DNA of 51,348 bases from Clostridia bacterium (GTDB lineage Bacteria; Bacillota; Peptococcia; DRI-13; SM3-B62), in assembly GCA_018433675.1 (NCBI GenBank), contig JAHDQS010000028.1, positions 1 through 51,348 on the forward strand. Reading direction: 5' to 3'. The notes under the pieces were generated by a model, which was not told where the DNA came from, made no database searches, and saw only the letters and a list, made by a program, of their open reading frames with translations. The translations under genes and the position numbers were made by a program. Numbering within the stretch: the first letter of the stretch is position 1; each line of letters opens with the position of its first letter. This document shows, one piece after another, positions 17,456-39,913 of this stretch.

Positions 17456-17513
17456 TTTTAAACAACTCCTTTTTTATTTATTTGATATATTTGCAAGGGT
17501 GAAAACCACCCAA

Positions 17514-19328
17514 TTACAGCATCATCACTGTTCCTCTTCCGCTCCTGCCCGGATAAGCACCTTCAGCTACGCTGCCGAGTAATCCCTCGTAAAGAGCAGC
17601 AACAAAATCGCCTCTCTCCGCTACCGTTTCCAACACTTCCTCAATGCCTTTTTCCAAGCGCTCGGCCCATACCCCCGCTTTTTCGGTGGGGGCAATACTT
17701 GACATCCCGAAGAAACGGAAGGCTTCTTGCAAGGCTTTTAAGGTATCGATGCGGGACGGCACTGCTATCGGTCCCCCTGAATAAGCCTCATCAGAAGAAG
17801 CGATAGAAATGGCTTCAACTCCTAAACTGGCAGCAAGGGCCCCGTGCAATGCGGTGGATAACGAAGACTGCACCCTATCCTCCGTTTGTGTCAAAAACCC
17901 TATGGGTGCTCCCGGCCAAATCGGAGCCCTGATTATATTGCGCAGAGCCATGATTTTCGCCGCATTGAAATCAACATAATTATCATCCATATCGCCTGAT
18001 ACCATAACCTCCGGAGAATAACAAAACAACGGCTGCAGTATAGGTCTGCCACCCAAGCGCAATCCGAGATGCGCAGTAATTAGCATCCCGGCAAAAGCCT
18101 TATAGGCAGGAACCCCACACAGTTCCTCATTTGTCACCACATCAAAGGAAAGTCTATACTCAGCCGCGTAACGGATAGCTTGCATAGCATCCACAGTCAG
18201 CCTGGCCGGGTCTGTTCCCCCGCCTAAGGAACCATAGGCAATATTGATTTTAGTCATATCCGCACCCATCGCCCCTGCCAAGAGTACTGTTTCCGGCGTG
18301 TTTAAACCCCTATGGGCTCTTACCTGCCATATCGTATGAGGGCTTAAAGACCCCTTAATACTCATTAAGTTCTCTGGGGTGATAATGGAACCGTCCTCCT
18401 CATGGGTTATGTATCCCTCCAAAAAACCCTCGGTACGAGCCCCCCAGGATGGATCAAAATGCACCACCCCGTCGGCGCCCCAAGCTTCTCCGGCCTTGAT
18501 GTGAGCAATATCCATAAAGGGACAGCCTGTGCCATACTGGATAAAAACCACCGGTTTTTCTCTGGTGTGCTGAATTACCTGCAGCGTCATACGCTTATTG
18601 GTCTCCTCAACGTATCTCTCTAATTTCCTCAGTTCTTCGCTACTCAACAGACGCGTTTTTGGCAATACCGTTTTTTCAAGATAGAAATCCTTGACCTTGT
18701 CATCACACCACCGCAAGTATTCCAGCAACAGTTGTGTCCTGTCCTTACCCTGAGGAAGTTCCAATAGTCTTTTTCTCACCTCGGCCCTCTTTATCCCAGG
18801 CGTAGTTTTGTTCTGTCCCCAACCGACAATCGAGGTTACGATATGATCCAACATCTTCCCAATATTTTTATTACCATAGGCATAATCGAACCCTTTGGTA
18901 ATATCCCTTTTTATCTTCCCCGCTCCTCTTATCTCCGGTTCATATTTCCTATTTTCCAGGAAAGCAATGACCTCTTCCGGCTTCGTCCCCGGACCAAAAC
19001 CGGCATCATAGCCCAACTCTTGCGCTAATTCAGGACGAATGCTCATGCCCCCTATAGCCAGCTTTACATTCTCGCGGATTCCTACCGCTTCCGCCATGTC
19101 CACAAACCGCGCTAAAAGCTCGGCAACACCATAACCCAAAGTACGGCTGACTAAGATAGCACTGACCTTCTCCTCTAAGGCTTTCTTGAGGATTTCCTCT
19201 GAAGAATAGTCAGGGGGCAGAAGAATTGTCAGATAGCCCGCCTCATCCAGGGATCGTTTTATAATTTTTAAACCTATATCATGCACCGGATCCAACGGCG
19301 CCAATAAAACCTTAGCCTCTTTACTCAT
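17514..19328 (-). CDS. adenosylcobalamin-dependent mutase-like protein with N-terminal B12 domain
   Basis: The 605-residue product begins with a cobalamin-binding Rossmann domain: DPVHDIG (residues 13-19) is the DxHxxG base-off motif with His16 as lower ligand, followed by ILVSRTLGYG (SxL) and LAIGGMS (GG). A catalytic-barrel-like region follows, with IAHIKAGEAWGADGVVHFDPSW, QVRAHRGLNTPET and INIAYGSLGGGTD segments. This recalls the barrels of glutamate mutase MutE or the lysine/ornithine aminomutases. ATG at 19328 or 19331 follows GGAGGGAGGG, and the upstream frame to 19364 is not used. It overlaps the small upstream gene by 8 bp. Mutase versus aminomutase cannot be settled; the neighbouring PLP enzyme favours an amino-acid substrate. 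Confidence 0.7.
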   Translation of the reverse strand: MSKEAKVLLAPLDPVHDIGLKIIKRSLDEAGYLTILLPPDYSSEEILKKALEEKVSAILVSRTLGYGVAELLARFVDMAEAVGIRENVKLAIGGMSIRPELAQELGYDAGFGPGTKPEEVIAFLENRKYEPEIRGAGKIKRDITKGFDYAYGNKNIGKMLDHIVTSIVGWGQNKTTPGIKRAEVRKRLLELPQGKDRTQLLLEYLRWCDDKVKDFYLEKTVLPKTRLLSSEELRKLERYVEETNKRMTLQVIQHTREKPVVFIQYGTGCPFMDIAHIKAGEAWGADGVVHFDPSWGARTEGFLEGYITHEEDGSIITPENLMSIKGSLSPHTIWQVRAHRGLNTPETVLLAGAMGADMTKINIAYGSLGGGTDPARLTVDAMQAIRYAAEYRLSFDVVTNEELCGVPAYKAFAGMLITAHLGLRLGGRPILQPLFCYSPEVMVSGDMDDNYVDFNAAKIMALRNIIRAPIWPGAPIGFLTQTEDRVQSSLSTALHGALAASLGVEAISIASSDEAYSGGPIAVPSRIDTLKALQEAFRFFGMSSIAPTEKAGVWAERLEKGIEEVLETVAERGDFVAALYEGLLGSVAEGAYPGRSGRGTVMML

Positions 19329-19560
19329 CATCCGTCCCTCCCTCCAGCCAGCCATAGCGGTCACCGGCTCTGTGAATATATCCTCGAGCCCTCACCCTTG
19401 CACCCGGTCCTTCATGTTCAATAAAAACAATATCCGCGTCTTTCAGTCCGAACCCCTTCATTAACTGCATAGCTAATACCCTGCCCTCTTTTTCATCTTT
19501 ACAGGCGAAAAAAGTTTCGATATCCACGGCATCAAGAACGCTCTCGAACCATTCTCCCAT
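19321..19560 (-). CDS. small protein coupled to the B12-dependent mutase
   Basis: This 79-residue acidic soluble protein overlaps the mutase gene, and its stop codon lies inside the mutase start region. Position suggests a small subunit like OraS of D-ornithine aminomutase, but it is shorter than OraS (about 120 residues) and I see no shared motif. A GGGAGGGTG ribosome site precedes the ATG. It is the first structural gene after the palindrome 19583-19599. Confidence 0.6.
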   Translation of the reverse strand: MGEWFESVLDAVDIETFFACKDEKEGRVLAMQLMKGFGLKDADIVFIEHEGPGARVRARGYIHRAGDRYGWLEGGTDDE

Positions 19561-21414: not shown

Positions 21415-21825
21415 TTATTTTATTAATTTCATGGCCTTACATACCGCGTCTTTGATTAACTCCGACAAGGTAATCTCCTGTCCGACCCCCACTATCTCAA
21501 TGTTTTTATGATTAACAGGAATTAATATTTTGGGAATTGAAGCACCGGCAATGATCGTTGCTATACCGGATGTAATTTCCCCCCACATAGAATCAGGTAT
21601 CACGATGCCTATTGGCCCAATAATGCATCTGGCATCACGCAAACAAACTCGTATCGAGTTTTCCCCGGTAGCGCCCCTTGAAGCTCCAGCCTTGATCATA
21701 CTGCTGGAGGCAACTGCATTTGTTCCTACCGCCACAATTTCTTCTTCAGGCAGCCGCTGGCGCAAAAAGGTTATTATTTGCGTCCCAATTCCTCCTCCTA
21801 ATCCATCAACTACCATGATGCTCAT
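21415..21825 (-). CDS. DUF3842 family protein
   Basis: This 136-residue protein starts with a nucleotide-binding-like strand-turn-helix ([18 protein letters not shown]). It matches my memory of DUF3842, a conserved protein of Clostridia with unknown function. Further motifs are [18 protein letters not shown] and [16 protein letters not shown]. It starts 9 bp after the LarA-like gene in the same operon. A small-molecule-binding Rossmann-like fold is inferred. Confidence 0.7.
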
Positions 21826-21834
21826 ATTGTCCTC

Positions 21835-23283
21835 CTATAGAACGGCTGCTTTAATTATTTGCGTGTCTATGCCACGCTGACGGAGCCATTTCGGCAGCAG
21901 GACTTCATCTACTCTCTTATTTACTTGAGGCGCTTTCTCCAATAACAATCGAGCTAAAGGCTCGCTTACATTTATCCCGCCTGCGGCGCCATCAAAGATT
22001 ATTACCTTATCTGTCTTTGCTGAATTATATGCAAACCTCATAGCCGTATCCAGGTTATCAGCTGTAACGGCATATGACATGTACTCAATATTCTGCGGGT
22101 CGCGGTTCATTACTTCTGCCTGTTCCCCTCCGACCACAAGGGTCGGTATATGCTCACTGAAAAATGCGCTGGGATACCCGCCCCAAGCATAATTATGCAG
22201 AGCCATTTTGATGGCAGGGTTTACCGGCGGTACTTTATCTATCAACGGTTTGCCGTCTTTACCGTAAAATGCTTCCGTATACCATGTGTATGGCGGCAAT
22301 GGAACATCAAGATCAAAAAGATCCACATTAGCACCGGCAAAATTTGCATAGATAACTCCTGCCGCAAATACATAAGGTACCGGACAAGGAAAATCTAAGG
22401 CCGCAATACATTCATCTATTTCTCCCAATAAGGTCATGATTTTGCCGTAATATCTGCACCCACCCGCAGTTAACCTGTCGTTTAAAGCATACAGATCGTT
22501 ATCGACATCAACGCCTACTACACCAACAGGAGACATATCAAGGAAGGCGGCAAAGGCGAACTTGTTCTGAACAAACTCCGAGTCAAAAATAGCTCTGGCC
22601 GTGAAATTTGCTCCCCTTGGTCCAAGGTTCTGATGATATGTCGATCTCGTCTCTATTCTGGCGTATGACATCCCGAACGGCTTGACAGCCCGGTCAACCT
22701 GGCGGTGAAAATGGACTTCTCGCACGTCACTATTATGAGCGTGAACGACCCAATCGGCATCATATACCGCTTTTAAACCATAAAGGGTTCCGATTTCCGT
22801 CTTGATAGGGATCCCCTGATCGACCGGGGCCATACCTTTTGCTTTTCCTTGATAATGCTCGTCTAACTTAAAAGCTTTGATATACTCTTCGGTTTCTCTA
22901 AAACGCAATCCAACACCGGCCCTTAACCTTATATCCTGTGTACCTGTTCTTTGTGCGATGACATCTCTGATGGTCCTTAAGAGTTGGGCATAAGGTTCGC
23001 CTCCCAACAACGTAAAACCATGGTGAGAAGCGCATACGTTTACCGAATCAGTAGATTTGATCATACTCATGTCGATCTTTTTCAAAGCTTTTTCGGCTGT
23101 TTCCCTAACCTCGGCAATTCCTTTTTCACTTGGGTAAATTACTTGCGGAGTATCCGGAAACAGTTCTTTAAGCATTACCGAAGTCATATCCGGAAACTCA
23201 GATACTCTTTTGGTGATATATTTAGGATCAACGCCATATTGAGAGATGCGAGGTTTTTGCGGCGTTATTGTTTTTTTACTCAT
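21835..23283 (-). CDS. LarA-like (nickel-pincer) enzyme candidate
   Basis: I do not recognise an annotated family for this 482-residue protein. However, its middle part follows lactate racemase LarA: RAGVGLRFRETEEYI parallels the ATGTHRP.TEEEI region, DADWVVHAH parallels EADLVVSEG, and His191, Lys201 and His217 have exactly the spacing of LarA His174, Lys184 and His200 (offset 17). In LarA, Lys184 carries the nickel-pincer nucleotide, His200 binds nickel and His174 is a catalytic base. The LarA His108 position appears to be Arg here. The start overlaps the ferredoxin stop by ATGA. Racemase, epimerase or dehydratase chemistry on a hydroxy acid is plausible. Confidence 0.5.
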   Translation of the reverse strand: MSKKTITPQKPRISQYGVDPKYITKRVSEFPDMTSVMLKELFPDTPQVIYPSEKGIAEVRETAEKALKKIDMSMIKSTDSVNVCASHHGFTLLGGEPYAQLLRTIRDVIAQRTGTQDIRLRAGVGLRFRETEEYIKAFKLDEHYQGKAKGMAPVDQGIPIKTEIGTLYGLKAVYDADWVVHAHNSDVREVHFHRQVDRAVKPFGMSYARIETRSTYHQNLGPRGANFTARAIFDSEFVQNKFAFAAFLDMSPVGVVGVDVDNDLYALNDRLTAGGCRYYGKIMTLLGEIDECIAALDFPCPVPYVFAAGVIYANFAGANVDLFDLDVPLPPYTWYTEAFYGKDGKPLIDKVPPVNPAIKMALHNYAWGGYPSAFFSEHIPTLVVGGEQAEVMNRDPQNIEYMSYAVTADNLDTAMRFAYNSAKTDKVIIFDGAAGGINVSEPLARLLLEKAPQVNKRVDEVLLPKWLRQRGIDTQIIKAAVL

Positions 23284-23894
23284 CGCTTTGCCTCCTTTCT
23301 CGTATCTTTAACTTCATTTAATAATCTGATATCTTCTTCAAAATAAAAGCCCCTGGCGTTATATTTGTCCTTAACTTCACTTGGTATATCCCAGATGGTC
23401 GGCGTAATACCGTACCATTGATAACCGCCCTCAGGCGGAACAGGTTTGATACCGTATGCATCCAAAAGCCTTAATACAGGTTGTATGCATTCAACCTTAC
23501 AGCCGGTCCTCACCCCGGTTTGTTGGGAAATTTCTTCCGGGGATTTAGCCCCCTTCAGTATCGCAGCCGCAACCTCTTCCGCTCTTGTCATCGTACAGTA
23601 GCAAATGATTTGTTCAGGATTGAGAGAGGCTCTTTGGCATAATTCATCAATTTTATTATAAGGAAGGTCGTCAATGGACACACCGACCCGATACGGTTCT
23701 GCCAGCTTTTCCATAGACACGGCATCAGCAGGACAGCGTTGGTTGCAGTTCCCGCAACCTCTGCACAGGGTTTCATCAACCACCGCTTTCTTATTGACTA
23801 TTTTAATCGCAATTGTCGGACATACTTTTTCACATGTCCGGCAACCGGTACATTTCTCTATATCGATCTTAGCTACTAAGGTTATCAGCTTCAC
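23280..23894 (-). CDS. 2[4Fe-4S] ferredoxin fused to a BFD-like [2Fe-2S] domain
   Basis: The roughly 204-residue protein has two 4Fe-4S motifs (CTGCRTCEKVCP and CRGCGNCNQRCP). A BFD-like domain follows with CYC and, 32 residues on, GCKVEC. The usual second pair is CxxC; here it is CxxxC. The tail of about 55 residues has no recognised motif. GTG at 23894 follows AGGGGGAG and is preferred to the TTG at 23915. It is an electron carrier or subunit for an oxidoreductase in this operon; the partner is not evident. Confidence 0.8.
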   Translation of the reverse strand: MKLITLVAKIDIEKCTGCRTCEKVCPTIAIKIVNKKAVVDETLCRGCGNCNQRCPADAVSMEKLAEPYRVGVSIDDLPYNKIDELCQRASLNPEQIICYCTMTRAEEVAAAILKGAKSPEEISQQTGVRTGCKVECIQPVLRLLDAYGIKPVPPEGGYQWYGITPTIWDIPSEVKDKYNARGFYFEEDIRLLNEVKDTRKEAKR

Positions 23895-23942
23895 GATATT
23901 CTCCCCCTTTGTCAATGCATTATTTCTGTTTCAATGAAACTA

Positions 23943-24716
23943 TCATTGAAACTTAAGCGATATATTGCCCATTCCGCTGAAACTAACTGTAATCACATCT
24001 TTGGCCTCTACCACGGCCATAGCTGTAAATGAACCGGACATTACTATGCTTCCGGCTTTCAGCTCTAAATCAAATTCCGCCAGCTTGTTGGCAAGCCAAG
24101 CCACTGCTGCCGCCGGATTACCCCATACCTCGGCTCCCGTACCGCTAGCTACCAATTCCCCGTTTTTCTCCAATGTCATACCTATTAATCGCATATCAAT
24201 ATCCTCAATGGGTGTCATCTTACTGCCTAAAACAAATTTTGCGCTGGATCCATTATCCGCAACCGTGTCTTCGAGTTTAATCTTCCAATCCTTTATCCTG
24301 CTATCTACTATTTCTATAGCCGGAACAACATAGCCGGTTGCATTGTACACATCTGCAATGGTCACGCCGGGACCCTTTAAGGTTTGCTTAAGACAAAAAG
24401 CCAATTCACCTTCCACCTTGGGCTGAATAAGTTCAGCCAAAGGACAAGCCTGACCTTCGAGAAGCAGCATTTTGTCGGTCAGATGCCCATAGTCAGGTTC
24501 GCCGACGCCCAGCATCTTCTGTACGGCTTTGCTGGTCAGGCCAACCTTCATGCCGATAATTTTTTCTCCGGCGGCTTTTCTTAGTTCTATCGTTGCAAGT
24601 TGTATCTTATAGGCATCCTCTATTTTTATTTCCGGCTGAGACTCTGTAAGCTGAGGGATCTGGTAACACTCTTTTGTAGCTTTGTCTAGCTCCTTAGCAA
24701 TCTTTTTGTGATCCAT
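23943..24716 (-). CDS. 2-oxopent-4-enoate hydratase / 4-oxalocrotonate decarboxylase family enzyme
   Basis: This roughly 257-residue protein belongs to the MhpD/DmpE/DmpH branch of the fumarylacetoacetase superfamily. It has GMKVGLTSKAVQ, VEGELAF with the metal-binding Glu pair, and VVPAIEIVDSRI. Such enzymes hydrate 2-hydroxypenta-2,4-dienoate to 4-hydroxy-2-oxovalerate or decarboxylate 4-oxalocrotonate. The aldolase and acetaldehyde dehydrogenase for the following steps lie at 27496-29408. ATG at 24716 has GGAGG 8 nt upstream; the frame to 24767 lacks a ribosome site. Confidence 0.8.
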   Translation of the reverse strand: MDHKKIAKELDKATKECYQIPQLTESQPEIKIEDAYKIQLATIELRKAAGEKIIGMKVGLTSKAVQKMLGVGEPDYGHLTDKMLLLEGQACPLAELIQPKVEGELAFCLKQTLKGPGVTIADVYNATGYVVPAIEIVDSRIKDWKIKLEDTVADNGSSAKFVLGSKMTPIEDIDMRLIGMTLEKNGELVASGTGAEVWGNPAAAVAWLANKLAEFDLELKAGSIVMSGSFTAMAVVEAKDVITVSFSGMGNISLKFQ

Positions 24717-24747
24717 AAACATATCCTCCTCAATGATTAATATAGAC

Positions 24748-25644
24748 TTACAAGTAGTGAAATTCATGCTGCGTCTTCATTAGCTTTCTCGCTAAAATAG
24801 CAGCCAGCTTTTTCGCTATTTCTTCCTTACTCTTTTTTCCCTGCAGACACTCACATAACACCGGCCCAGCCAACCTAACCTCATCGTTTGGACCGGGAAG
24901 TGTAACAATTAATGAAGGTCCAATTTCCCCCACCCCTATTCTTACTCCGTCTTTAACATGTCTTCCCGTACCCTTCTTGAACTTTGCAATATATTCTGTG
25001 GCCGCCTGGGGATCGACCTTTAACAGTGCCTCAACGCTTTTATCCTTATCCTCCGCTCCAACTCCCCCCGTCGTTATTATCAGCCCAAACCCTCTGGACA
25101 AGGCATCGGACAACCGATAAACAGCTACATCTATATCATCCTCTATGACCGGTCCTATCGTAACCGTATAACCTTCCTTTTCAAAAATCTCTTTCAAATA
25201 AGGAGAATTCGTATCTTCTATCATTTTTTGCGTTAATTCAAATCCTGTAGGAAAAACAAGAACCCTTTTCGCAACATTCTCGCTAATGTCTTTCCCCATT
25301 TTAGCAATATTCGCGACCATTAACTCCGCATCTTCCTCTTGCAAACAAATCATCCCCAGGATGCCATCCGAATGTATATAAGTTTCTTTCGTAATATTCA
25401 CACCTTTTATAGAGGATAGCGCATTTAGAATGGCCGCTTCTTTCCCGATTATATTGTCCAGCGGTATATCGTTCTCCAGAATATCAAATGTAATGCTATG
25501 AGGCCTGACATCCACAACTAAAACATTTTCTTTCCTAAGCTGTAATACTGCGGCGAAGGATTCGGCCATTTGAGTAAGGTTCGCATTGTTCAGCTTTATC
25601 TTGTTTACCCATACCTCGGTTTTGTTTAATAGATTCAAGCCCAT
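24748..25644 (-). CDS. MoCF-biosynthesis-domain (MoaB/Mog/CinA-like) protein
   Basis: The C-terminal two thirds (from about residue 125) of this 298-residue protein form a MoaB/Mog-type domain: RVLVFPTGFEL, DDIDVAVYRLSDALSRGFGLIITTGGVGAEDKD and VTLPGPNDEV. The N-terminal 120 residues are unrecognised. The family binds molybdopterin or, in CinA, pyridine nucleotides. It starts 3 bp after the NadC-like gene, which suggests a joint function on a nucleotide-like cofactor, though this is inference. No molybdenum hydroxylase is encoded in the window. Confidence 0.75.
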   Translation of the reverse strand: MGLNLLNKTEVWVNKIKLNNANLTQMAESFAAVLQLRKENVLVVDVRPHSITFDILENDIPLDNIIGKEAAILNALSSIKGVNITKETYIHSDGILGMICLQEEDAELMVANIAKMGKDISENVAKRVLVFPTGFELTQKMIEDTNSPYLKEIFEKEGYTVTIGPVIEDDIDVAVYRLSDALSRGFGLIITTGGVGAEDKDKSVEALLKVDPQAATEYIAKFKKGTGRHVKDGVRIGVGEIGPSLIVTLPGPNDEVRLAGPVLCECLQGKKSKEEIAKKLAAILARKLMKTQHEFHYL

Positions 25645-26609: not shown

Positions 26610-27392
26610 TCATTCATCATAACCCAATCTATTAGAGATTTTCTTTGCAGCCTCTTTGGTAAGTTCAGCTATTTTGCGTAACCTTTCATCAGTTATCCTC
26701 ATCGTTGGTCCGGAAATACTCAATGCCGCAATAACCTCTTTACGATAATTAAATATCGGGGCTGCTATACACCGTAAACCGATCTCAATCTCTTCATCAT
26801 CTAAACTATACCCATCTCTTCTTATCTCTTTGAGCTGTTGCTTTAGCTTTTCTATATCCGTAATCGTATTTTTTGTAAAACGTGCCAATTCATTTTTTAG
26901 TATCTTATTAACATCTTCTTCCGCAAGATGAGCCAAGATGACCTTGCCTACTCCGGTACAATGAAAGTTGACCCGGTTACCTACCTGCGAAATAATACTG
27001 ATAGCGCTGGGCCCTTCCACCTTTTCCACATAAACGGCTTCATGCTTATTCCTAATAACCAAATGCACTGTTTCTTTGGTTTTATCAACTAGTTCTTCAA
27101 GATAGGGTTTAGCTAGTACTCGCAGCTCTAAACTAGCCTCAAATATTTGTCCGAGCACAAATACCTTAAGTCCCAATCTATACTTGCCGTTTTCCGAATT
27201 TTGCTCCAGATATCCTCTGTTTTGCAAGGTTTGGATCAGCCCAAAACAGGTGCTTTTGTTTAAACCGGTTCTTTTGGATATCTCCGTTACTCCCAGTTCC
27301 TTTTCTTTCAAACTAAAGCCTTCCAATATTCTTAACGCCCTATCTACAGATTGAATAATATTTGCATTACCTGAATTAGTATTTAACTCCAT
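26610..27392 (-). CDS. IclR-family transcriptional regulator
   Basis: The 260-residue protein has an N-terminal winged helix (LGVTEISKRTGLNKSTCFGLIQTLQNRGYL) and a C-terminal IclR effector domain (GPSAISIISQVGNRVNFHCTGVGKVILAHL, GLRCIAAPIFNYRKEVIAALSISGPT). IclR proteins commonly control aromatic or hydroxy-acid catabolism. It sits between the aldolase/acetaldehyde dehydrogenase pair and the hydratase-containing operon, so it may regulate both halves of the lower pathway. Confidence 0.9.
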   Translation of the reverse strand: MELNTNSGNANIIQSVDRALRILEGFSLKEKELGVTEISKRTGLNKSTCFGLIQTLQNRGYLEQNSENGKYRLGLKVFVLGQIFEASLELRVLAKPYLEELVDKTKETVHLVIRNKHEAVYVEKVEGPSAISIISQVGNRVNFHCTGVGKVILAHLAEEDVNKILKNELARFTKNTITDIEKLKQQLKEIRRDGYSLDDEEIEIGLRCIAAPIFNYRKEVIAALSISGPTMRITDERLRKIAELTKEAAKKISNRLGYDE

Positions 27393-27495: not shown

Positions 27496-28503
27496 TTATT
27501 GTTGTTTCTTTTTACTTAACTTATGTGCAACCTCAATAATCAAGTCTTCTTGACCGCCTACCGTCCTCATCTTGCCTAACTCGACCAAAACATCCCTGGG
27601 CTCAACGCCATACTTTTCGGCTGCGCGGTAGGTGTGCAAGAGAAAGCTTCCATAAACCCCGGCCCAACCCAAGGTCAGGGAAGCCGTGTCAACTGTCTGC
27701 GGTCGGTGCATTTTGGGTCCAACCACATCCTCGGCGGCATCCATGATTTTATACAAATCAACTCCGGTAGCAACCTTCATCTTGTCAAAGACCGCTATTA
27801 AAACCTCTGATTGTGCATTACCGGCCCCGGCCCCCAAGCCTCTTAAGGTACCGTCGATATAAGATGCTCCGGCTTCATAAGCCGCCACTGAATTGCCAAT
27901 AGCCAATCCCATATTGTTATGTCCGTGGAAACCGACCGGTATGCTTACAGCAGCTTTGACGGCAGAAATTCGCTCCTTCACCTGGCTTGGAACCATTGCC
28001 CCGGCTGAGTCGGTGACATATACAGCATCTGCACCATAGCTTTCAAATAACAATGCCTGTTCCACAACTTTTTCCGGCAAAACAGAATGAGACATCATTA
28101 AGAACCCAAAGGCTTCCATTCCGTTGTCCTTAGCCATTTTGATATGCTGTTCTCCTATATCTGCTTCCGTAACATGAGTAGCAATTCTGGCCACTTTTGC
28201 ATTATATTTCAGAGCCATTTCCATATCTAACCTCGTACCAATACCCGGCAATATCAAAATGTCCAGCTTGGCATTTTTGATTGCTGAAGAAACAGCCTTT
28301 AAATACTCCTCGTCAGTGTTTTTGGAGAAACCATACTGAAAAGAGGAACCGCCCAAGCCGTCGCCATGTCCTACCTCAATTATCTCTACGCCAGCTTCAT
28401 CCAAAGCATGAGCTATTGCCGCCATATCATCCGGTGTGAATTGATGGCTTACCGCATGCATGCCATCACGTAATGTGGTATCGATCATTCTAACATCGCG
28501 CAT
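27496..28503 (-). CDS. mhpE: 4-hydroxy-2-oxovalerate aldolase
   Basis: This 335-residue HMGL-like TIM-barrel enzyme cleaves 4-hydroxy-2-oxopentanoate to pyruvate and acetaldehyde. Visible catalytic elements are IDTTLRDGMH (Arg12, Asp13, His16) and the divalent-metal ligands GFHGHNN (His193, His195). The C-terminal communication domain expected for the DmpG/DmpF complex is present (MHRPQTVDTASLTLGWAGVYGSF). The dehydrogenase gene ends 29 bp upstream, so acetaldehyde is probably channelled. Length is normal for the family. Confidence 0.93.
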   Translation of the reverse strand: MRDVRMIDTTLRDGMHAVSHQFTPDDMAAIAHALDEAGVEIIEVGHGDGLGGSSFQYGFSKNTDEEYLKAVSSAIKNAKLDILILPGIGTRLDMEMALKYNAKVARIATHVTEADIGEQHIKMAKDNGMEAFGFLMMSHSVLPEKVVEQALLFESYGADAVYVTDSAGAMVPSQVKERISAVKAAVSIPVGFHGHNNMGLAIGNSVAAYEAGASYIDGTLRGLGAGAGNAQSEVLIAVFDKMKVATGVDLYKIMDAAEDVVGPKMHRPQTVDTASLTLGWAGVYGSFLLHTYRAAEKYGVEPRDVLVELGKMRTVGGQEDLIIEVAHKLSKKKQQ

Positions 28504-28532: not shown

Positions 28533-29408
28533 TTAAGCCGTTTTCAGCAATTTGCCGGCTATTCTTTCAGCAATAGCTAACGCAGCTGCATTAATGATAT
28601 CTAGATTTCCGGAGTATTTTGGCAAGTGCAGACCCTCTCCTTCTACTTCTATCATGGTAGTAACCTTATTCCCGTCTATAATTGGGGCTAGCTTTAGTCT
28701 GTAGCCGGGGACATATTCCTTGATCTTTTCTACCATGTCCTCAACACTTTTGGTAATGGCTTCTAGATCCGGCTTCTCTACCCGGCAATAAATCGTATTC
28801 CTCATCATAATGGGAGGCTCGGCGGGATTAAGAATAATAATCGCCTTGCCTTTTTTTGCTCCTCCCACTTTTACCACCCCGTTGGCAGTCGTTTGGGTGA
28901 ATTCATCGATACTCTGTCTTGTACCCGGTCCCGCGCTACGGCTGGATATCGTTGCCACGATTTCAGCGTATTCTACCGGAGCAACGCTGCTTATGGCAGC
29001 AACAATAGGTATTGTCGCTTGTCCCCCGCAGGTTATAAGGTTGATATTCTCTGTGTCATAATTCCCCTGCATGTTTACCGCCGGAACTACATAAGGACCC
29101 ACTGCCGCAGGTGTTAAATCAATGGCGATCTTGCCATGTTTCTTTAATAACGGGGCATATTCTTTATGTGCCTTAGCATTAGTACAGTCAAACACTATTT
29201 TTATTTCATCATTTTTTAAAATGTCCTCTATCCCTTTTCCGGAAGTGTTAAATCCATGTTCCCGGGCTGTTGCCAAGCCCTTGGATGTTTCTCTGATACT
29301 TGCCAGGGTATCCAGCTCTATGTTTTCCCCCCGTTTCATTATCTTAAACATTAAATCTAAACCGATATTGCCCGGTCCGATAATTGCCGTTTTTATTTTT
29401 GTATGCAT
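28533..29408 (-). CDS. mhpF: acetaldehyde dehydrogenase (acetylating)
   Basis: The 291-residue protein has the NAD-binding [13 protein letters not shown] motif at the N terminus and catalytic Cys127 in [11 protein letters not shown], as in DmpF/MhpF. It converts acetaldehyde, NAD and CoA to acetyl-CoA, partnering the aldolase encoded just downstream. Upstream lies a 272-bp gap containing the element shared with the sigma-54 activator gene (29511-29586). Confidence 0.93.
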
Positions 29409-29680: not shown

Positions 29681-30457
29681 TTAATAATCCTTAAACTGCG
29701 GAGGGCGTTTTTCCAAAAAAGCCTTCATCCCCTCCGAACGATCTTCTGAGTCGAAACAAATTCTAAAGAGTTCGGACTCCAAGGTATAGGATAAATCCGA
29801 CTCTGCCTCTAACCCTTTGTATACCGCTTTCTTCAGAACCTGAAGGGCTACCCGGCTCTTACCACATAGCTTGTTCCCGACATTCTTAGCAGTTTCCATC
29901 AATTCTTCAGCAGAAACAACCTGATTTATCAGACCAAATCCCAATGCGTCTTGTGCCCCTACGATCTCACCCGTTAGCAACAGTTCCAATGCCTTTGTCT
30001 TGCCGATTAGTCGCGGCAACCTTTGGGTTCCGCCAAATCCAGGTATAATACCGAGATTTATTTCGGGCTGTCCAAATTTTGCATTTTCTGAGGCAATCCT
30101 TAGATCGCAGGCTAAAGCAATCTCGCAGCCGCCTCCCAGCGCATAACCATTCACTGCGGCAATAACAGGTTGCGGCATTTCCTCTATCATCGAAAATATT
30201 TCTTGACCATAACGGGAATATTCGTATCCCTCATCGGCAGTCATAACGGACATGGCCTGTATATCCGCACCTATCACAAAAGATTTGCTACCGCTACCCG
30301 TAATGATAATAACCTTCACTGTTCGATCATTTCTTAATTCCATTAACATGGACTGCATTTTGGCAAGTACTTCTTTGTTGAGCGCATTTAATACTTCCGG
30401 TCTGTTGATGCTGACTATTCCAAGACTGCCTTCTTGCTTAAAAGTCACGACGCTCAT
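29681..30457 (-). CDS. enoyl-CoA hydratase (crotonase)
   Basis: The 258-residue protein has the crotonase oxyanion-hole segments FVIGADIQAM and AAVNGYALGGGCEIALACDLRIA, and the catalytic Glu in PEINLGIIPGFGGTQRLPRLIG. It hydrates crotonyl-CoA to 3-hydroxybutyryl-CoA. ATG at 30457 has GGGGG upstream; the GTG at 30472 is less likely. It is the last gene of operon II, completing conversion of 4-hydroxybutyryl-CoA to acetyl-CoA. Confidence 0.92.
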   Translation of the reverse strand: MSVVTFKQEGSLGIVSINRPEVLNALNKEVLAKMQSMLMELRNDRTVKVIIITGSGSKSFVIGADIQAMSVMTADEGYEYSRYGQEIFSMIEEMPQPVIAAVNGYALGGGCEIALACDLRIASENAKFGQPEINLGIIPGFGGTQRLPRLIGKTKALELLLTGEIVGAQDALGFGLINQVVSAEELMETAKNVGNKLCGKSRVALQVLKKAVYKGLEAESDLSYTLESELFRICFDSEDRSEGMKAFLEKRPPQFKDY

Positions 30458-30486
30458 TTTATCAACCCCCACAGCACAGATAGCGG

Positions 30487-31353
30487 TTATTTTTTATTTG
30501 TGTAAGTATAATAGCCCCGACCGGATTTCACTCCATAACACCCGCCGTCGACCATCCGTTTCAGTTCCGGACAAGGAAAGTATTTCGTTTCTCCGTAACC
30601 TTCATACATGACATTAAGAATGGACAAAACTGTATCCAGCCCGATGAAATCGGCCAATTGCAAAGGACCCATCGGATGTCCCATGGCCAGTTTCATACCC
30701 TTGTCGATGTCTTCAGCACAGGCCACTCCTTCCATATGGCAATAAAAAGCTTCATTCAACAATGGCATCAGCAGCCGGTTTAAGAGGAAGGCCGGATTAT
30801 CACCTACCGAGATGATCTCTTTTTTCATCTGCTCACCGACTTGCCTGACCAATTCCGTTGTTTCCTCACTGGTGCTTAATCCTCTTACGATTTCAACGAT
30901 TTTCATAACCGGAACGGGATTAAAAAAATGCATGCCGATAAAACGCTCTGGTCTGTCGGTTTGGGCTGCCAACCTGGTTATGGAGATGGAGGAAGTATTG
31001 GAGGCAAATATTACCTCCGGAGAACATATTTTTGATAGCTTTTGAAATAACTCTACTTTTACTTTTTCGTCTTCCGATACTGCCTCTATCACCAATTCTG
31101 ATTCTTTAGCTAGTTCCAAATCTATTACACAAACAATGTTATTTAAAGTATCTTGATACTGTTCTTCATTGATTCTCCCTTTTTCAAGAGCCCTCGCAAG
31201 ATTTTTCCGGATTGTTTCCATTCCCTTTTCCGTTCGTTCCAGTGATCTCCCCATCATAAAAACTCTAAACCCATTCTGGGCAGCCACCTGGACAATTCCG
31301 CTGGCCATTTGACCAACACCGATTACATAGATGCTGTTGATTTTTTTCCCCAT
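30487..31353 (-). CDS. hbd: 3-hydroxybutyryl-CoA dehydrogenase
   Basis: The 288-residue protein has a Rossmann motif IYVIGVGQMASGIVQVAA, catalytic His in GMHFFNPVPVMKIVEIV, and a C-terminal dimerisation domain with NRLLMPLLNEA. Length and motifs fit Hbd of butyrate-type clostridia. The first glycine motif reads GVGQMA instead of GAGTMG, a modest deviation. It oxidises 3-hydroxybutyryl-CoA to acetoacetyl-CoA. Confidence 0.92.
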   Translation of the reverse strand: MGKKINSIYVIGVGQMASGIVQVAAQNGFRVFMMGRSLERTEKGMETIRKNLARALEKGRINEEQYQDTLNNIVCVIDLELAKESELVIEAVSEDEKVKVELFQKLSKICSPEVIFASNTSSISITRLAAQTDRPERFIGMHFFNPVPVMKIVEIVRGLSTSEETTELVRQVGEQMKKEIISVGDNPAFLLNRLLMPLLNEAFYCHMEGVACAEDIDKGMKLAMGHPMGPLQLADFIGLDTVLSILNVMYEGYGETKYFPCPELKRMVDGGCYGVKSGRGYYTYTNKK

Positions 31354-31358
31354 TATAT

Positions 31359-32540
31359 TTATTTCCCCCTTTCAACCAATACGGCTGTTCCCTGTCCCCC
31401 TCCGATACATAGGGTGGCTAAGCCCTTCTTGGCTCCCCGTTTCTCCATTTCGTACAGGAGTGTTACCAAGATGCGCGCTCCGCTTGCTCCTATCGGGTGC
31501 CCTAAGGCAATTGCACCACCATTGACATTGACAATATCCATATTGAACCCTAAGTCTTTTGCCACAGCTAATGATTGAGCAGCAAAAGCTTCATTTGCTT
31601 CAATCAGTTCTACCTCGGACATTTGCCAGCCGGCTTTTTTCAGGACTTTTCTCGTGGCCTCAACCGGACCTATCCCCATTATTGCGGGATCCACCGCAGC
31701 AGAGGCTCCGGCCTTAAAGACTGCAAGGGGTTCTAAGCCCATTTCTTGAGCCTTTTCCCTCGAAGCAAGTACCAGTGCCGCCGCTCCGTCATTGATACCT
31801 GAAGCATTTCCTGCTGTAACTGTTCCGTCTTTTTTGAAAGCAGGCCTTAGCTTGGCCAAAGACTCAGCCGTAACTCCCGCCCGGGGAAATTCATCAGTGA
31901 CAAATTCTTTCACGCCACCTTTAACAGGTATCTGCACAGGCACAGTTTCTGCGGCAAACCGATTTTCTATGATGGCTTTTTCTGCTTTATTTTGGCTTTT
32001 GGCAGAAAAAGCATCTTGTTCTTCTCTGCTGATCTTCCATCTTTCTGCAATGTTTTCAGCCGTGATACCCATATGATAATTGTTCGTCGCGCACCACAGT
32101 CCATCATTAACCATAGTATCAACTACCTGCCCCGGTCCCATCCTGTATCCGAAACGAGCCTTAGGTAATGCATACGGTGCCATAGACATATTCTCCATCC
32201 CACCGGCCACGACGATATCCGCATCACCAAGGGCAATTTCTTGTGCCGCCAAGCATACTGCTTTCAGCCCGGAACCACAAACCTTATTTATCGTCATAGC
32301 AGGCACATTGTTAGGTATCCCGGCTTTCAAAGAAGCCTGCCGGGCCACATTCTGCCCCAATCCTCCCTGCAAGGCACAACCCATGATCACATCCTCGACC
32401 GCTTCCGGTTTGACCTTTGCTCTGGCCAAGGCCTCTTTAATGACGATGCTTCCCAATTCCAGCGATGGTATATCTTTTAAGTTCCCGCCAAAGGAACCGA
32501 TAGGCGTCCTTACCGCCCCAATTATCACTACTTCCCTCAT
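31359..32540 (-). CDS. acetyl-CoA C-acetyltransferase (thiolase)
   Basis: This 393-residue thiolase has nucleophile Cys88 in [11 protein letters not shown], the [11 protein letters not shown] His and the C-terminal CIGGGQG Cys. It cleaves acetoacetyl-CoA to two acetyl-CoA, or the reverse. It starts directly at the stop of the 4-hydroxybutyryl-CoA dehydratase gene and ends 5 bp before hbd. Confidence 0.95.
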
Positions 32541-33995
32541 TTATTTTTCCTCCGTATTTATGCCGGCAATTGATTTTGCCAGGTCTTTTTTCCAGGACAG
32601 ATTGGCCTGTCTGCCAATCATTACCCTTTGTGCTTGGGGAGAACCTGCACCATGCAACGATTCGGTACGGTACCCGACAGCCCCCGCACCCAATGTCATG
32701 TTCTCAATTAAACGCAAGACACGTAGCCTGTGCTCTGTCGGTACTTGGCTGACACCCCGGAGATATTTCTCAATCAGGGAACCTACCACCGGAGATTTCA
32801 TGTCCTTTTCCGAAGGCATGGTAACCATCAGTCCCCCTGCTAGATCCTCTGCCAAACGTGTAATTTCGTATGGGAAACGGGTCACGTTCTGTTTGCAAAC
32901 ATTGGCTAAAAGCATATCAATCAAGTATGTCCCCGAAGCGGTAGAACTTCCTTGGCAAGAGCAGGCAAGCCCACATGAGTAAATCGTCTCGTTGAGATGC
33001 GTCATTTCGGCCAATTTGTCTTTGATATGACTGGCTTTTTCAACCCCATTGTATTCTGCCGCCAAGGCAGCAGCACCGATCAATACATCCCCTACCCCGG
33101 ACTTACAGCCGCCATAACTCGAACGATGATAACCGGCAAACCTTTCCACCAGTATTCTGGAATATTCGTATTCTCTATACATGAAAACCCTTTCCCAGGG
33201 AACAAAGACATCTTCCATAACCACAAGGGCTTCCTGCCCACCAAAGTTGCAGTTTCCTACATCAATTTTTCCTCCTTCCAGCTTCCTGGTGTCACAGGAT
33301 TGACGGCCATAGATGTAAGTGATTCCTTCCGTATCGGCGGGAAGAGCGAAACAGACAGCATAGTCTTTATCTTCTTCAGACATGGCCACTGTAGGCAAAA
33401 TGAATATCTCATGCGAATTCAGAGCCCCTGTCTGATGGGCTTTGGCACCGCGCACAATGATACCGCCCTCCACTTCTTTCACAACATGGAGATACATATC
33501 AGGATCAGACTGTTTCGATGGTTTCAAACCACGGTCTCCCTTAGGATCCGTCATAGCCCCGTCAACAACAAGGTCTTCGTCTTGCACATACTGCAAGTAT
33601 TGGCGAAACCTTTTATGATAATCTGTGCCTTTTTCACGATCTATTTCATATGTTGTAATGTCGACAGCATTAAAGGTATCCATGCCTACACAGCGCTGAA
33701 AACAAGTAGCTGTTTTTTGCCCCAAAAGCCTCAGCATTTTTACTTTCTTCAGTAAATCCTCGGTGCTTTGGTGCAGATGGGTAAAACGGTTGATTCTTTT
33801 CCCTGTTAAATTGGAGATAGCAGTCATTAAATCCTTATACTCAGGGTCCTGCGCTAATTCATAAGTCATGGCTACCGCATTCAAAGACGGCCTAACAATC
33901 GGATTGTCAACGATATTTTCTATTTGTTCGCCGAACATGTAGAGCTTGAACTTCATTTTTCTTATTGAATCAATGTATTGCTCTTTTGTCTTCAT
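32541..33995 (-). CDS. abfD: 4-hydroxybutyryl-CoA dehydratase / vinylacetyl-CoA isomerase
   Basis: This 484-residue protein of the 4-hydroxyphenylacetate-hydroxylase-like flavoprotein family keeps the four ligands of the unusual [4Fe-4S] cluster of AbfD: Cys98 and Cys102 (TCFQRC), His290 and Cys297 (HRSSYGGC). These match Clostridium aminobutyricum Cys99, Cys103, His292 and Cys299. This separates it from oxygen-dependent hydroxylases. The enzyme dehydrates 4-hydroxybutyryl-CoA to crotonyl-CoA via a ketyl radical and is oxygen-sensitive. Downstream thiolase, hbd and crotonase handle its product. A relaxed substrate range is possible in this operon. Confidence 0.9.
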   Translation of the reverse strand: MKTKEQYIDSIRKMKFKLYMFGEQIENIVDNPIVRPSLNAVAMTYELAQDPEYKDLMTAISNLTGKRINRFTHLHQSTEDLLKKVKMLRLLGQKTATCFQRCVGMDTFNAVDITTYEIDREKGTDYHKRFRQYLQYVQDEDLVVDGAMTDPKGDRGLKPSKQSDPDMYLHVVKEVEGGIIVRGAKAHQTGALNSHEIFILPTVAMSEEDKDYAVCFALPADTEGITYIYGRQSCDTRKLEGGKIDVGNCNFGGQEALVVMEDVFVPWERVFMYREYEYSRILVERFAGYHRSSYGGCKSGVGDVLIGAAALAAEYNGVEKASHIKDKLAEMTHLNETIYSCGLACSCQGSSTASGTYLIDMLLANVCKQNVTRFPYEITRLAEDLAGGLMVTMPSEKDMKSPVVGSLIEKYLRGVSQVPTEHRLRVLRLIENMTLGAGAVGYRTESLHGAGSPQAQRVMIGRQANLSWKKDLAKSIAGINTEEK

Positions 33996-34038: not shown

Positions 34039-34575
34039 CTACTTCGCATACTTCATTCCTTCTTCAATCGCTCTTTGATTGGCCGGCAGCAAATTATGGC
34101 GTTTGACAGATAACATCTCTTTGAGACTGTCCATGACAGATTTCAACTCAACACACTTTGTTGCCGCAATCAAGGTTCCTAATAAAAACATATTGGCAAT
34201 ACGTTCGTCACCCATCTCTTTCGCCATCTCATTCGCCGGTACTTTAGCCACAAATAGCTCTTGCCGTTCAGAGTCGCGGGTGACTAAGGAGGAATTAATA
34301 ATTACCATCCCTTGTGGTGCCACATTATGCTCAAACTTATCATACGAAGGAGAATTCATGGCAATCAGGCAGGTCGGTCTGTCTATGACAGGTGCATCTA
34401 TCTCTTCATCAGAAATAATCACGGAACAATTTGCTGTTCCCCCGCGCATTTCCGAACCGTATGAAGGTATATACACTACATGCTTTCCCTCTTTCATGGC
34501 CGCATTTGCCAGAACCTTGCCAATGAGCATAACTCCTTGCCCCCCTGAGCCGGCAATTAATAACTTGTGCATCAT
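34039..34575 (-). CDS. 2-oxoacid:ferredoxin oxidoreductase, gamma subunit
   Basis: The 178-residue protein has the gamma-subunit signature LLIAGSGGQGVMLIGKVLA and SYGSEMRGGTANCSVIIS. The ATG at 34575 follows GGAGG within the end of the beta-subunit gene; the frame to 34596 is not used. With the beta, alpha and delta genes it forms a KorABCD/VorABCD-type complex oxidising a 2-oxoacid to acyl-CoA with ferredoxin reduction. Confidence 0.92.
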   Translation of the reverse strand: MMHKLLIAGSGGQGVMLIGKVLANAAMKEGKHVVYIPSYGSEMRGGTANCSVIISDEEIDAPVIDRPTCLIAMNSPSYDKFEHNVAPQGMVIINSSLVTRDSERQELFVAKVPANEMAKEMGDERIANMFLLGTLIAATKCVELKSVMDSLKEMLSVKRHNLLPANQRAIEEGMKYAK

Positions 34576-34576
34576 C

Positions 34577-35323
34577 CTATTCTCCCTCCTTAGCATCCTT
34601 GATTACCCCAATCGGGTAGTAACCTTCTAAGTTCTTCTCCATCCATTTGATGGATTCAAGCGGTTCCAGACCCCAATTGGTTGGACAGGTTGATAATATC
34701 TCGACTATACTGAATCCTTTCTTTGCTAATTGGAGTTCGAATGATTTTTTTATGGCTTTTTTTGTTTTGGCAATACTGGCAACACTGCTTATCTTGGTTC
34801 TTTCGGCATAAACGCACCCTTCTTGCAAGGCCAGCATTTCTGTCATTTTTATCGGGTATCCGGTTGATTCAGTCTTACGGCCATAAGGCGCGGTCGTTGC
34901 CTTCATCTCCGGCAGGGATGTCGGTGCCATTTGCCCCCCGGTCATCCCGTAAATGCCGTTATTCACGAAGATTACACTTATTTTTTCTCCCCGCACCGCT
35001 GTGTGAACGATTTCCGCCGTGCCGATAGAAGCTAAATCTCCATCTCCTTGATATGTAAAAACCAGACAATCCGGGTGCACTCTCTTTACGCCCGTGGCAG
35101 TCGCCGGGGCTCGACCATGAGCCGTTGCGACCATATCAAAATTAAAATAGTCATAGTTAAAACAAGAACATCCTACTGAGGCAACCCCTATTGTTTCTTT
35201 TAATATTTTCATCTCATCAATTACCTCGGCTATCAAACGGTGAATAATACCGTGGGTACAACCGGGACAGTAATGCATGGGAACATCGACCAAAGCCTGC
35301 GGGAACGCATTAATCTTATTCAC
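34577..35323 (-). CDS. 2-oxoacid:ferredoxin oxidoreductase, beta (TPP-binding) subunit
   Basis: The 248-residue protein has the N-terminal [10 protein letters not shown] cluster region and the thiamine-diphosphate motif [22 protein letters not shown]...NNGIYG. It abuts the alpha gene and the gamma gene. Substrate is uncertain: 2-oxoglutarate, branched 2-oxoacids and hydroxylated 2-oxoacids all use this family. Confidence 0.93.
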
Positions 35324-36382
35324 CTATCCCACCTCCTTAGCAAGTTCTTCCAATTTAATTAATATTTCTTCAGGCAAGGGCAGCACTCCACCCAGACGCC
35401 CGAAATGATGAACCTGTCTTGCCTTTCCCACCGCCAACCTTACATCATCGATCATTTGCCCGGTGGATAGTTCCACAGTCAGAAAGAACTTAACTTGGGA
35501 TATCAGTTCCGTAAATGGTTGTTGCGGAAAGGGCCAGACACTGATAGGCCGCAAAAGACCCGCTTTTATACCTTTTTTCCGTGCCATTCTTACGGCGGCT
35601 TTAGCAAGCCTGGCTGCGGTTCCATATGCCACCAGCACATACTCGGCGTCTTCCAGCAGGAAAGAATCCCAGCGCACCTCGTTGTTTTTAATCTCGTCAT
35701 ACCTTTTGTGCAACCTTATATTAACCTGCTCCAAAACTTCTACCTGGGGATAAGATGAACTGATTATATTGCGATCCCTATTATAATTTTTGGATACCGC
35801 CCATGGTTTTTCCGCTTTATTCTCTTTCGCTTCCGGAAGTTCCACCGGCTCCATGATTTGTCCCAATACCCCATCACCTAGTATCATCACCGGATTACGA
35901 TACTTATCAGCCAGGTCAAAGGCCTCATAGGTCAAATCGACTGCCTCCTGGACAGTTGCGGGCGCCAGAACTAATAAGCGGTAATCGCCATGCCCTCCGC
36001 CTCTTGTCGCCTGCCAGTAATCCGGTTGGGCCCCTTGAATTGCTCCCAGTCCGGGGCCTCCCCTCATCATATTAACAATAACGCAGGGCAGCTCAGCACC
36101 GGCCATATAAGAGATGCCTTCCTGCTTTAAGCTGATCCCCGGACTCGATGATGAAGTCATCACTCTCGCACCTGCAGCGCTTGCCCCCAGCACCATAGAG
36201 ATTGATGCTATTTCACTCTCCCCTTGTAAGAAGGTTCCCCCGACTTGCGGAAGATATTTCGCCATATATTCAGGTATCTCATTTTGAGGGGTTATCGGAT
36301 ACCCGAAAAAGTAGCGACACCCGTTACGTATCCCAGCCTCAGCAATTGCTTCGCTGCCTTTCATTAACTGTTTTTCAGTCAA
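35324..36382 (-). CDS. 2-oxoacid:ferredoxin oxidoreductase, alpha subunit (VorB/KorA-like)
   Basis: The roughly 352-residue protein begins LTEKQLMKGSEAIAEAGIRNG and contains GYPITPQNEIPEYMA and a transketolase-like C-terminal half. The frame is open to 36505, but that would overlap the ferredoxin gene; the TTG at 36382 has AAAGGAGG 7 nt upstream and gives the standard N terminus. The complex is four separate subunits, as in VOR and KOR. Confidence 0.92.
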   Translation of the reverse strand: MTEKQLMKGSEAIAEAGIRNGCRYFFGYPITPQNEIPEYMAKYLPQVGGTFLQGESEIASISMVLGASAAGARVMTSSSSPGISLKQEGISYMAGAELPCVIVNMMRGGPGLGAIQGAQPDYWQATRGGGHGDYRLLVLAPATVQEAVDLTYEAFDLADKYRNPVMILGDGVLGQIMEPVELPEAKENKAEKPWAVSKNYNRDRNIISSSYPQVEVLEQVNIRLHKRYDEIKNNEVRWDSFLLEDAEYVLVAYGTAARLAKAAVRMARKKGIKAGLLRPISVWPFPQQPFTELISQVKFFLTVELSTGQMIDDVRLAVGKARQVHHFGRLGGVLPLPEEILIKLEELAKEVG

Positions 36383-36441
36383 GTTAGTTCCTCCTTTGTC
36401 GGACCACTTCCAACAGTGGTACATTGTCATCTTTGGTTTGT

Positions 36442-36645
36442 TTAACGATATACTTCGATACATACATCCGGGCAGAATGCATAACACGCCCCACAACCCG
36501 TGCAAGCTTCCTGATTTGTTAAGGTGGCAGGATTATACCCTTTCTTATTAATGTATGGTGCCAATTCGATTATTTTTTTAGGACAAGCATTAACACATAA
36601 AGAACAACCCTTACAACGTTCTTCGCGTATTTTAATGAAAGCCAT
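36442..36645 (-). CDS. 2-oxoacid:ferredoxin oxidoreductase, delta (ferredoxin) subunit
   Basis: This 67-residue protein has two 4Fe-4S motifs, CKGCSLCVNACP and CTGCGACYAFCP. ATG at 36645 follows AAGGGGG. As first subunit gene before alpha, beta and gamma, it is the electron-transfer subunit of the complex rather than a free ferredoxin. Confidence 0.92.
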   Translation of the reverse strand: MAFIKIREERCKGCSLCVNACPKKIIELAPYINKKGYNPATLTNQEACTGCGACYAFCPDVCIEVYR

Positions 36646-38335: not shown

Positions 38336-38358
38336 AGTAAATACCTCCCTTTTTCATT

Positions 38359-39858: not shown

Positions 39859-39913
39859 CTTTATCTCCCCCTCTAAAACAATATTACGGCTTGATTTTCT
39901 TTTGCATTGCAAA

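Follow-up and report, generated by a model that had tools for sequence, protein, structure and literature searches.

The window, the whole 51,348-nucleotide stretch of Clostridia DNA that was analyzed, carried an operon of catabolic genes in which an unnamed protein of 482 amino acids, here called the LarA-fold protein, was encoded next to a ferredoxin (Table 1). The gene begins with ATG, and its start shares 4 bases with the ferredoxin gene upstream. We propose the LarA-fold protein as a candidate nickel-pincer, ferredoxin-linked 2-furoate reductase that would open the furan ring, with the neighboring ferredoxin as its candidate electron donor. Other gene groups on the same strand were observed outside the operon. 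Upstream of it, 37451-40726 encodes an SMP-30-type lactonase, a galactarate/altronate dehydratase and a cyclase-family protein, possibly a sugar-acid pathway. At 15989-19364, a 616-residue B12-binding protein resembling aminomutase subunits is paired with a 488-residue partner for which no Pfam match above cut-off was found; the pair is possibly an undescribed B12-dependent mutase. Two neighboring C5-cytosine methylases and a type-ISP-like restriction/modification protein occupy 9246-14882.

Table 1. Genes of the operon around the LarA-fold protein, with the basis of each assignment.
Feature	Coordinates	Strand	Basis
DUF3842 protein	21415..21825	-	PF12953; near the LarA-fold gene in 9 loci
LarA-fold protein, 482 aa, His191-x9-Lys201-x15-His217	21835..23283	-	ORF, invariant triad, AlphaFold, PDB structure matches
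Ferredoxin, 2x[4Fe-4S] plus BFD-type [2Fe-2S] domain	23280..23915	-	Pfam; 12 cluster cysteines conserved
2-oxopent-4-enoate hydratase family (DmpE-like)	23943..24767	-	TIGR03220 307 bits, below equivalog cut-off 408.8
MoCF/CinA-N-like protein	24748..25644	-	Pfam
NadC/QPRTase-fold protein, altered pyridine-binding residues	25648..26451	-	Pfam; PDB alignment; own conserved residues
IclR-family regulator	26610..27392	-	Pfam
4-hydroxy-2-oxovalerate aldolase (DmpG)	27496..28503	-	PF00682 and PF07836; homologue L016:15155-16159 above TIGR03217 cut-off
Acetylating acetaldehyde dehydrogenase (DmpF)	28533..29408	-	PF09290; homologue above TIGR03215 cut-off
Crotonase/enoyl-CoA hydratase	29681..30472	-	PF00378
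3-hydroxyacyl-CoA dehydrogenase	30487..31353	-	PF02737/PF00725
Thiolase	31359..32540	-	PF00108/PF02803
HpaB-family protein (putative 4-hydroxybutyryl-CoA dehydratase/vinylacetyl-CoA isomerase type, from context)	32541..33995	-	PF11794/PF03241
Probable 2-oxoacid:ferredoxin oxidoreductase gamma subunit	34039..34596	-	Adjoins PorAB; homologue similarly placed in L021, L023
2-oxoacid:ferredoxin oxidoreductase beta subunit	34577..35323	-	PF02775; 86% identical gene beside the LarA-fold gene in L030
2-oxoacid:ferredoxin oxidoreductase alpha subunit	35324..36505	-	PF01855/PF17147; 81% identical gene in L030

The preliminary description of this DNA had reported that the protein carries the catalytic triad of the nickel-pincer lactate racemase LarA, and the open reading frame and its triad were confirmed: His191, Lys201 and His217 are present, spaced exactly as His174, Lys184 and His200 of L. 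plantarum LarA (numbering of the PDB sequence). The motif H-x9-K-x15-H occurred once among the 43 larger open reading frames of the window. When the same proteins were shuffled, 25% of trials contained at least one copy (mean 0.28), and the spacing was therefore rejected as stand-alone evidence. The triad nevertheless goes beyond chance because it was kept in all 88 collected homologues, because its columns were invariant (73/73) in alignment A2, which spans 49-84% identity and whose residue numbers run one below the full-length numbers used here, and because the predicted fold is that of LarA. Histidines 87, 88, 181, 183 and 193 were also invariant in the family.

The protein had been correctly called unannotated. 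It reached no cut-off in Pfam or NCBIfam, and PDB searches by sequence (phmmer) and by profile yielded no match. The Lar_N family PF09861 gave none at E up to 1, our own profile of 30 LarA sequences did not detect the protein, and hhalign comparisons with 10 and 30 LarA sequences were weak and not significant. A search of plasmids also returned no match. The failure of sequence methods to link the protein to LarA was due in part to the uniformity of the family (Neff 2).

Structure prediction made that link. The AlphaFold model from 73 sequences was confident (pLDDT 91, pTM 0.91); an earlier model from 9 sequences (pLDDT 60) was dropped. Foldseek returned ten matches with E below 1e-3, all of them lactate/malate racemases, and VIA-align 2 placed eleven LarA-family entries on top (Z 20.3 to 19.0, rmsd 3.8-6.8 over 330-356 residues), with 5huq_B at Z 19.4 and rmsd 4.3 over 351 residues and the first match of an unrelated fold at Z 6.4. 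The predicted structure has the LarA fold over the full length of the protein. Together with the invariant triad, the LarA matches at Z 19-20 supported the earlier suggestion of a remote member of the LarA superfamily. Within the LarA fold, which like the probable cofactor was already known, the protein represents a family that is new and unnamed.

Lys184 of LarA is the anchor of the nickel-pincer nucleotide (NPN), and His200 is a nickel ligand. Unguided hhalign, itself a weak alignment, placed His191 on His174 and His217 on His200 and gapped the stretch between them, so that Lys201 fell on Lys184 in the ungapped alignment only. Most likely, Lys201 and His217 would hold NPN, and His191 would act as proton donor/acceptor. 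The segment RAGVGLRFRETEEYI, which had been said to fit LarA as well, did align with the segment of LarA that bears His108, but it contains no histidine: invariant Arg127 takes the His108 position in a weak local alignment, and no conserved histidine was found in the segment in any homologue. The Asp72/Arg75 region of LarA was likewise not kept. Racemization by LarA has been described as requiring both His108 and His174 (PMC12611868). A plain racemase is unlikely, since a two-histidine racemase needs a counterpart of His108 and, as far as the weak local alignment allows, that counterpart is missing.

Comparison with known members of the fold placed the family apart from each. It shares with lactate racemase (PF09861/PF21113, 5HUQ; LarA/DUF2088 superfamily) the fold, the three triad counterparts with their spacing and the association with larB, larC and larE, but differs in lacking detectable profile similarity, in Arg127, in the five extra invariant histidines, in its ferredoxin partner and in its setting, a catabolic operon rather than a racemase context. 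The name LarA racemase is unsuitable because the searches for sequence similarity and for a second catalytic histidine were both negative. The LarA homologues 9Q3K and 9Q3J also have one of the two catalytic histidines (PMC12611868), but they lack the His174 counterpart, whereas the new family retains it and lacks His108. The UxaE-type LarA-clan protein of Thermotoga (Q9WYS3, 4NAR) has a LarA-like fold (Z 16.6 to our model) and was also tied to LarA by phmmer, but it is a carbohydrate epimerase by annotation and forms a separate sequence family. Since UxaE-type proteins share the fold, a LarA-like fold is not proof of NPN.

The operon was common to Firmicutes, Deltaproteobacteria, Chloroflexi, one spirochaete and Archaeoglobus. 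Carriers available in culture include Clostridium magnum, Moorella thermoacetica DSM 21394, Desulfofundulus thermobenzoicus and Oscillibacter. Across the 88 loci, the ferredoxin was the most constant neighbor (85), followed by the NadC-like protein (75), the MoCF-like protein (74), the DmpE hydratase (69), DmpG (59), the IclR regulator (57), DmpF (56) and a BenE-type transporter of the aromatic-acid kind (44). An aldehyde:ferredoxin oxidoreductase was present in 10 loci, as was an iron-dependent alcohol dehydrogenase (Fe-ADH). An M24 creatinase/prolidase-type metallopeptidase occurred in 38 of the 88 (for example L018:4539-5687, 382 residues, first considered as LarC and rejected on finding that its product is an M24 metallopeptidase); at a guess, it could hydrolyze conjugates resembling 2-furoylglycine. 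Four paralogous loci of about 50% identity (L019, L020, L021 and L023) kept the ferredoxin, NadC-like and MoCF-like genes, with glycyl-radical enzymes, FAD reductases, an HpcH aldolase, UbiD and TRAP transporters as other neighbors. These differing neighbors indicated several substrates in the family, and the four systems probably act on other heteroaromatic compounds.

The NadC-like and MoCF-like proteins form one fused polypeptide in L032:12905-14692, L037:3363-5159 and L044:1617-3431, and a check across the loci found only fusions of this kind; an apparent 671-residue ferredoxin fusion (L058, L059, L072) was rejected as a reading frame extended upstream over the ferredoxin gene. When the NadC-like protein of the window was aligned to 5hup, TRKTTP was replaced by WKKMPP, NHR by SFR and KDNH by DKNY. 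Several pyridine-binding residues of the QPRTase motifs (TRKTTPG, HR, IKDNH) were thus lost, while the QPRTase fold and a conserved set of the protein's own residues were present. The pincer nucleotide is itself a pyridinium mononucleotide, and we would guess that the NadC-like and MoCF-like proteins handle or modify it. Elsewhere in the window, 43827-45134 (+) encodes a Lar_N protein without counterparts of His174 and Lys184 (TTQATLWGYGGSG...). In six loci (L062, L064, L068, L069, L099, L102), relatives of this protein (38-69% identity) are encoded within 10 kb of the LarA-fold gene, so the protein may have an accessory role in the pathway.

The genes for NPN synthesis accompanied the LarA-fold gene in many genomes, with larC in 21, larB in 19 and larE in 13 of the 88 loci. 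In 48 loci the flanks reached 6 kb or more on each side; 18 of them had at least one of the three genes and 17 of these 18 were without larA, which argues that the NPN genes travel with the LarA-fold gene and not with a racemase. Across 398 genomes of the phylum, LarC was present in 25 of 27 with the gene and in 199 of 371 without it (Fisher p 3e-5, relatedness not corrected). Two genomes (G111, G155) combined larB, larC and the LarA-fold gene with no Lar_N protein, and five carriers from the same order as the window's host (G001, G002, G010, G023, G024) had larB, larC and larE together. This clustering, mostly without larA, and the presence of LarC in nearly all carriers indirectly supported the use of NPN by the LarA-fold protein, which we regard as likely.

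A check of the host itself went the other way. None of larB, larC and larE was found in the window's genome (G000, 99.94% complete) or in the sister genome G012, and this is the main problem for an NPN enzyme here. The two genomes had four and two Lar_N matches, respectively, some of them canonical LarA with the full triad. The window's copy would need NPN imported after gene loss, an assembly gap shared by both genomes, or another source of the cofactor.

A LarA fold without NPN, its triad serving some other metal or cofactor that the NadC-like and MoCF-like proteins might provide, is favored by the host's lack of larB, larC and larE, by the UxaE-like relatives that share the fold and by the NadC-like and MoCF-like genes present at most loci, the paralogous systems included. 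We consider this fairly unlikely, as many genomes have larB, larC and larE within the operon, in most cases with no larA, and the lysine and nickel-ligand histidine positions are invariant. The view taken in the preliminary description, an NPN racemase or epimerase of the classical kind acting on a new substrate, accounts for the fold and the triad; however, an invariant arginine stands in place of His108 and racemization has no need of the ferredoxin found at nearly every locus, leaving this reading very improbable. Its guess of a hydroxy-acid epimerase or dehydratase was weakened accordingly, while the relationship to LarA held; furan ring opening had not been considered there.

LarA enzymes transiently oxidize 2-hydroxy acids, so an NPN oxidoreductase or dehydratase could form 2-oxopent-4-enoate from a 2-hydroxy acid with the ferredoxin as electron acceptor, and both the ferredoxin partner and the adjoining DmpE would suit it. 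Such an enzyme is improbable: nothing was apparent that would supply a C5 unsaturated hydroxy acid, the aromatic-acid transporter and HmfF (below) would be left unexplained, and His108 and the Asp72/Arg75 region are not kept. The same NPN- and ferredoxin-dependent reductase might instead act on a different heteroaromatic acid with a five-membered ring, pyrrole-2-carboxylate for instance, giving 2-aminopentadienoate and then 2-oxopent-4-enoate and ammonia. The same carbon skeleton would lead to the compound on which DmpE acts, BenE transporters are not specific for furans, and the paralogues keep other neighbors, but the neighboring genes for HmfF orthologues, an aldehyde oxidoreductase and Fe-ADH suit furfural and furan acids, and we hold a pyrrole-type substrate to be distinctly unlikely.

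Furans are ring compounds that arise from the heating or processing of plant sugars. Proteins of the UbiD family adjoin the LarA-fold gene in several loci, and for the two that were tested (L042, L070) the closest characterized relative by a wide margin was HmfF (631 and 581 bits against 6H6V; the next PDB family scored 223 and 194). The entry 6H6V is HmfF of Pelotomaculum thermopropionicum (PMC8988006), and HmfF decarboxylates furan-2,5-dicarboxylate (FDCA) to 2-furoate (PMC6644310). Orthologues (61-86% identity) were surveyed in 80 genomes and were present in 6 of 30 with the LarA-fold gene (G232, G184, G026, G200, G361, G114) and in 1 of 50 without it (G027). In all six genomes with both, HmfF and the LarA-fold gene shared a contig and were no more than 17 kb apart; most genomes with the LarA-fold gene have no HmfF nearby. 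The aldehyde:ferredoxin oxidoreductase and Fe-ADH suit furfural and furfuryl alcohol. Judged by their families, the downstream operon genes would consume 2-oxopent-4-enoate or its enol, and the mass balance agreed, as 2-furoate (C5H4O3) plus 2H equals C5H6O3, exactly 2-hydroxypenta-2,4-dienoate. The operon context of HmfF, aromatic-acid transporter, aldehyde oxidoreductase and 2-oxopentenoate hydratase therefore points to reductive furan ring opening.

The best explanation of the locus, held with moderate confidence, was thus a ferredoxin-fed nickel-pincer reductase that opens the ring of 2-furoate in an operon for anaerobic furan degradation. The analysis itself established the LarA fold, a triad that does not vary, and an operon conserved together with larB, larC and larE, the ferredoxin and HmfF; we infer that NPN is bound, which substrate is used, which way the electrons flow and how the reaction proceeds. 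A reductive role is probable, and furoate as the substrate stands at about an even chance. Entry to the pathway would be the formation of 2-furoate from FDCA by HmfF. The partner ferredoxin would reduce the cofactor to a hydride form, and the hydride would add to C5 of 2-furoate, with His191 handling the proton. The resulting dienolate would expel the ring oxygen by vinylogous elimination, breaking C5-O, to give 2-hydroxypenta-2,4-dienoate, the enol of 2-oxopent-4-enoate and thereby the substrate of the hydratase, which would form 4-hydroxy-2-oxovalerate. The NadC-like, MoCF-like and M24-peptidase genes are left unaccounted for by a furoate reductase, which counts against it.

From 4-hydroxy-2-oxovalerate, established chemistry leads either to pyruvate and acetaldehyde or to 3-hydroxybutyryl-CoA, CO2 and reduced ferredoxin. 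Of 45 loci with full flanks and DmpE, 34 had DmpG only, 8 had the 2-oxoacid:ferredoxin oxidoreductase only, 2 had neither and 1, the window, had both; the two enzymes replace each other as alternatives. By one branch, DmpG and DmpF would split 4-hydroxy-2-oxovalerate into pyruvate and acetyl-CoA; by the other, the 2-oxoacid:ferredoxin oxidoreductase would decarboxylate it to 3-hydroxybutyryl-CoA, a branch with which the additional thiolase, dehydrogenase, crotonase and HpaB-family genes of the window are in keeping. Spent ferredoxin could be regained on oxidation of pyruvate or 4-hydroxy-2-oxovalerate.

Two known pathways overlap with the operon in part. The aerobic furfural/HMF pathway of Cupriavidus basilensis (hmfABCDE, hmfFGH) shares an HmfF-type decarboxylase and the entry point at 2-furoate; it reaches 2-oxoglutarate through a furoyl-CoA synthetase and a molybdenum hydroxylase, whereas the operon here would reduce and open the ring to yield 2-oxopent-4-enoate. 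The lower pathway of catechol meta-cleavage (DmpE, DmpG, DmpF) shares the hydratase, aldolase and acylating dehydrogenase, but the operon here is without any oxygenase, and its C5 intermediate would come from reduction. A 2018 review listed anaerobic furan degraders, expected other pathways from them and left the question open (PMC6604932). In the open-licence literature, no nickel-pincer furan enzyme, net-redox NPN enzyme or anaerobic furoate enzyme was found.

We tentatively suggest that the LarA-fold protein would be the first nickel-pincer enzyme of net redox chemistry, driving 2-furoate ring opening with ferredoxin in a widespread anaerobic furan pathway in which the NadC-like and MoCF-like partners handle or modify the pincer nucleotide; taken as a whole, this falls somewhat short of an even chance. 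The operon forms one complete candidate pathway for the anaerobic breakdown of furfural and furoate, and it looks like an undescribed oxygen-free route. If this is true, the nickel-pincer cofactor would gain a role beyond hydroxy-acid isomerization, and a single gene, encoding a widespread but unnamed protein, would allow gut, sediment and biofuel-relevant bacteria to be scored for furan removal.
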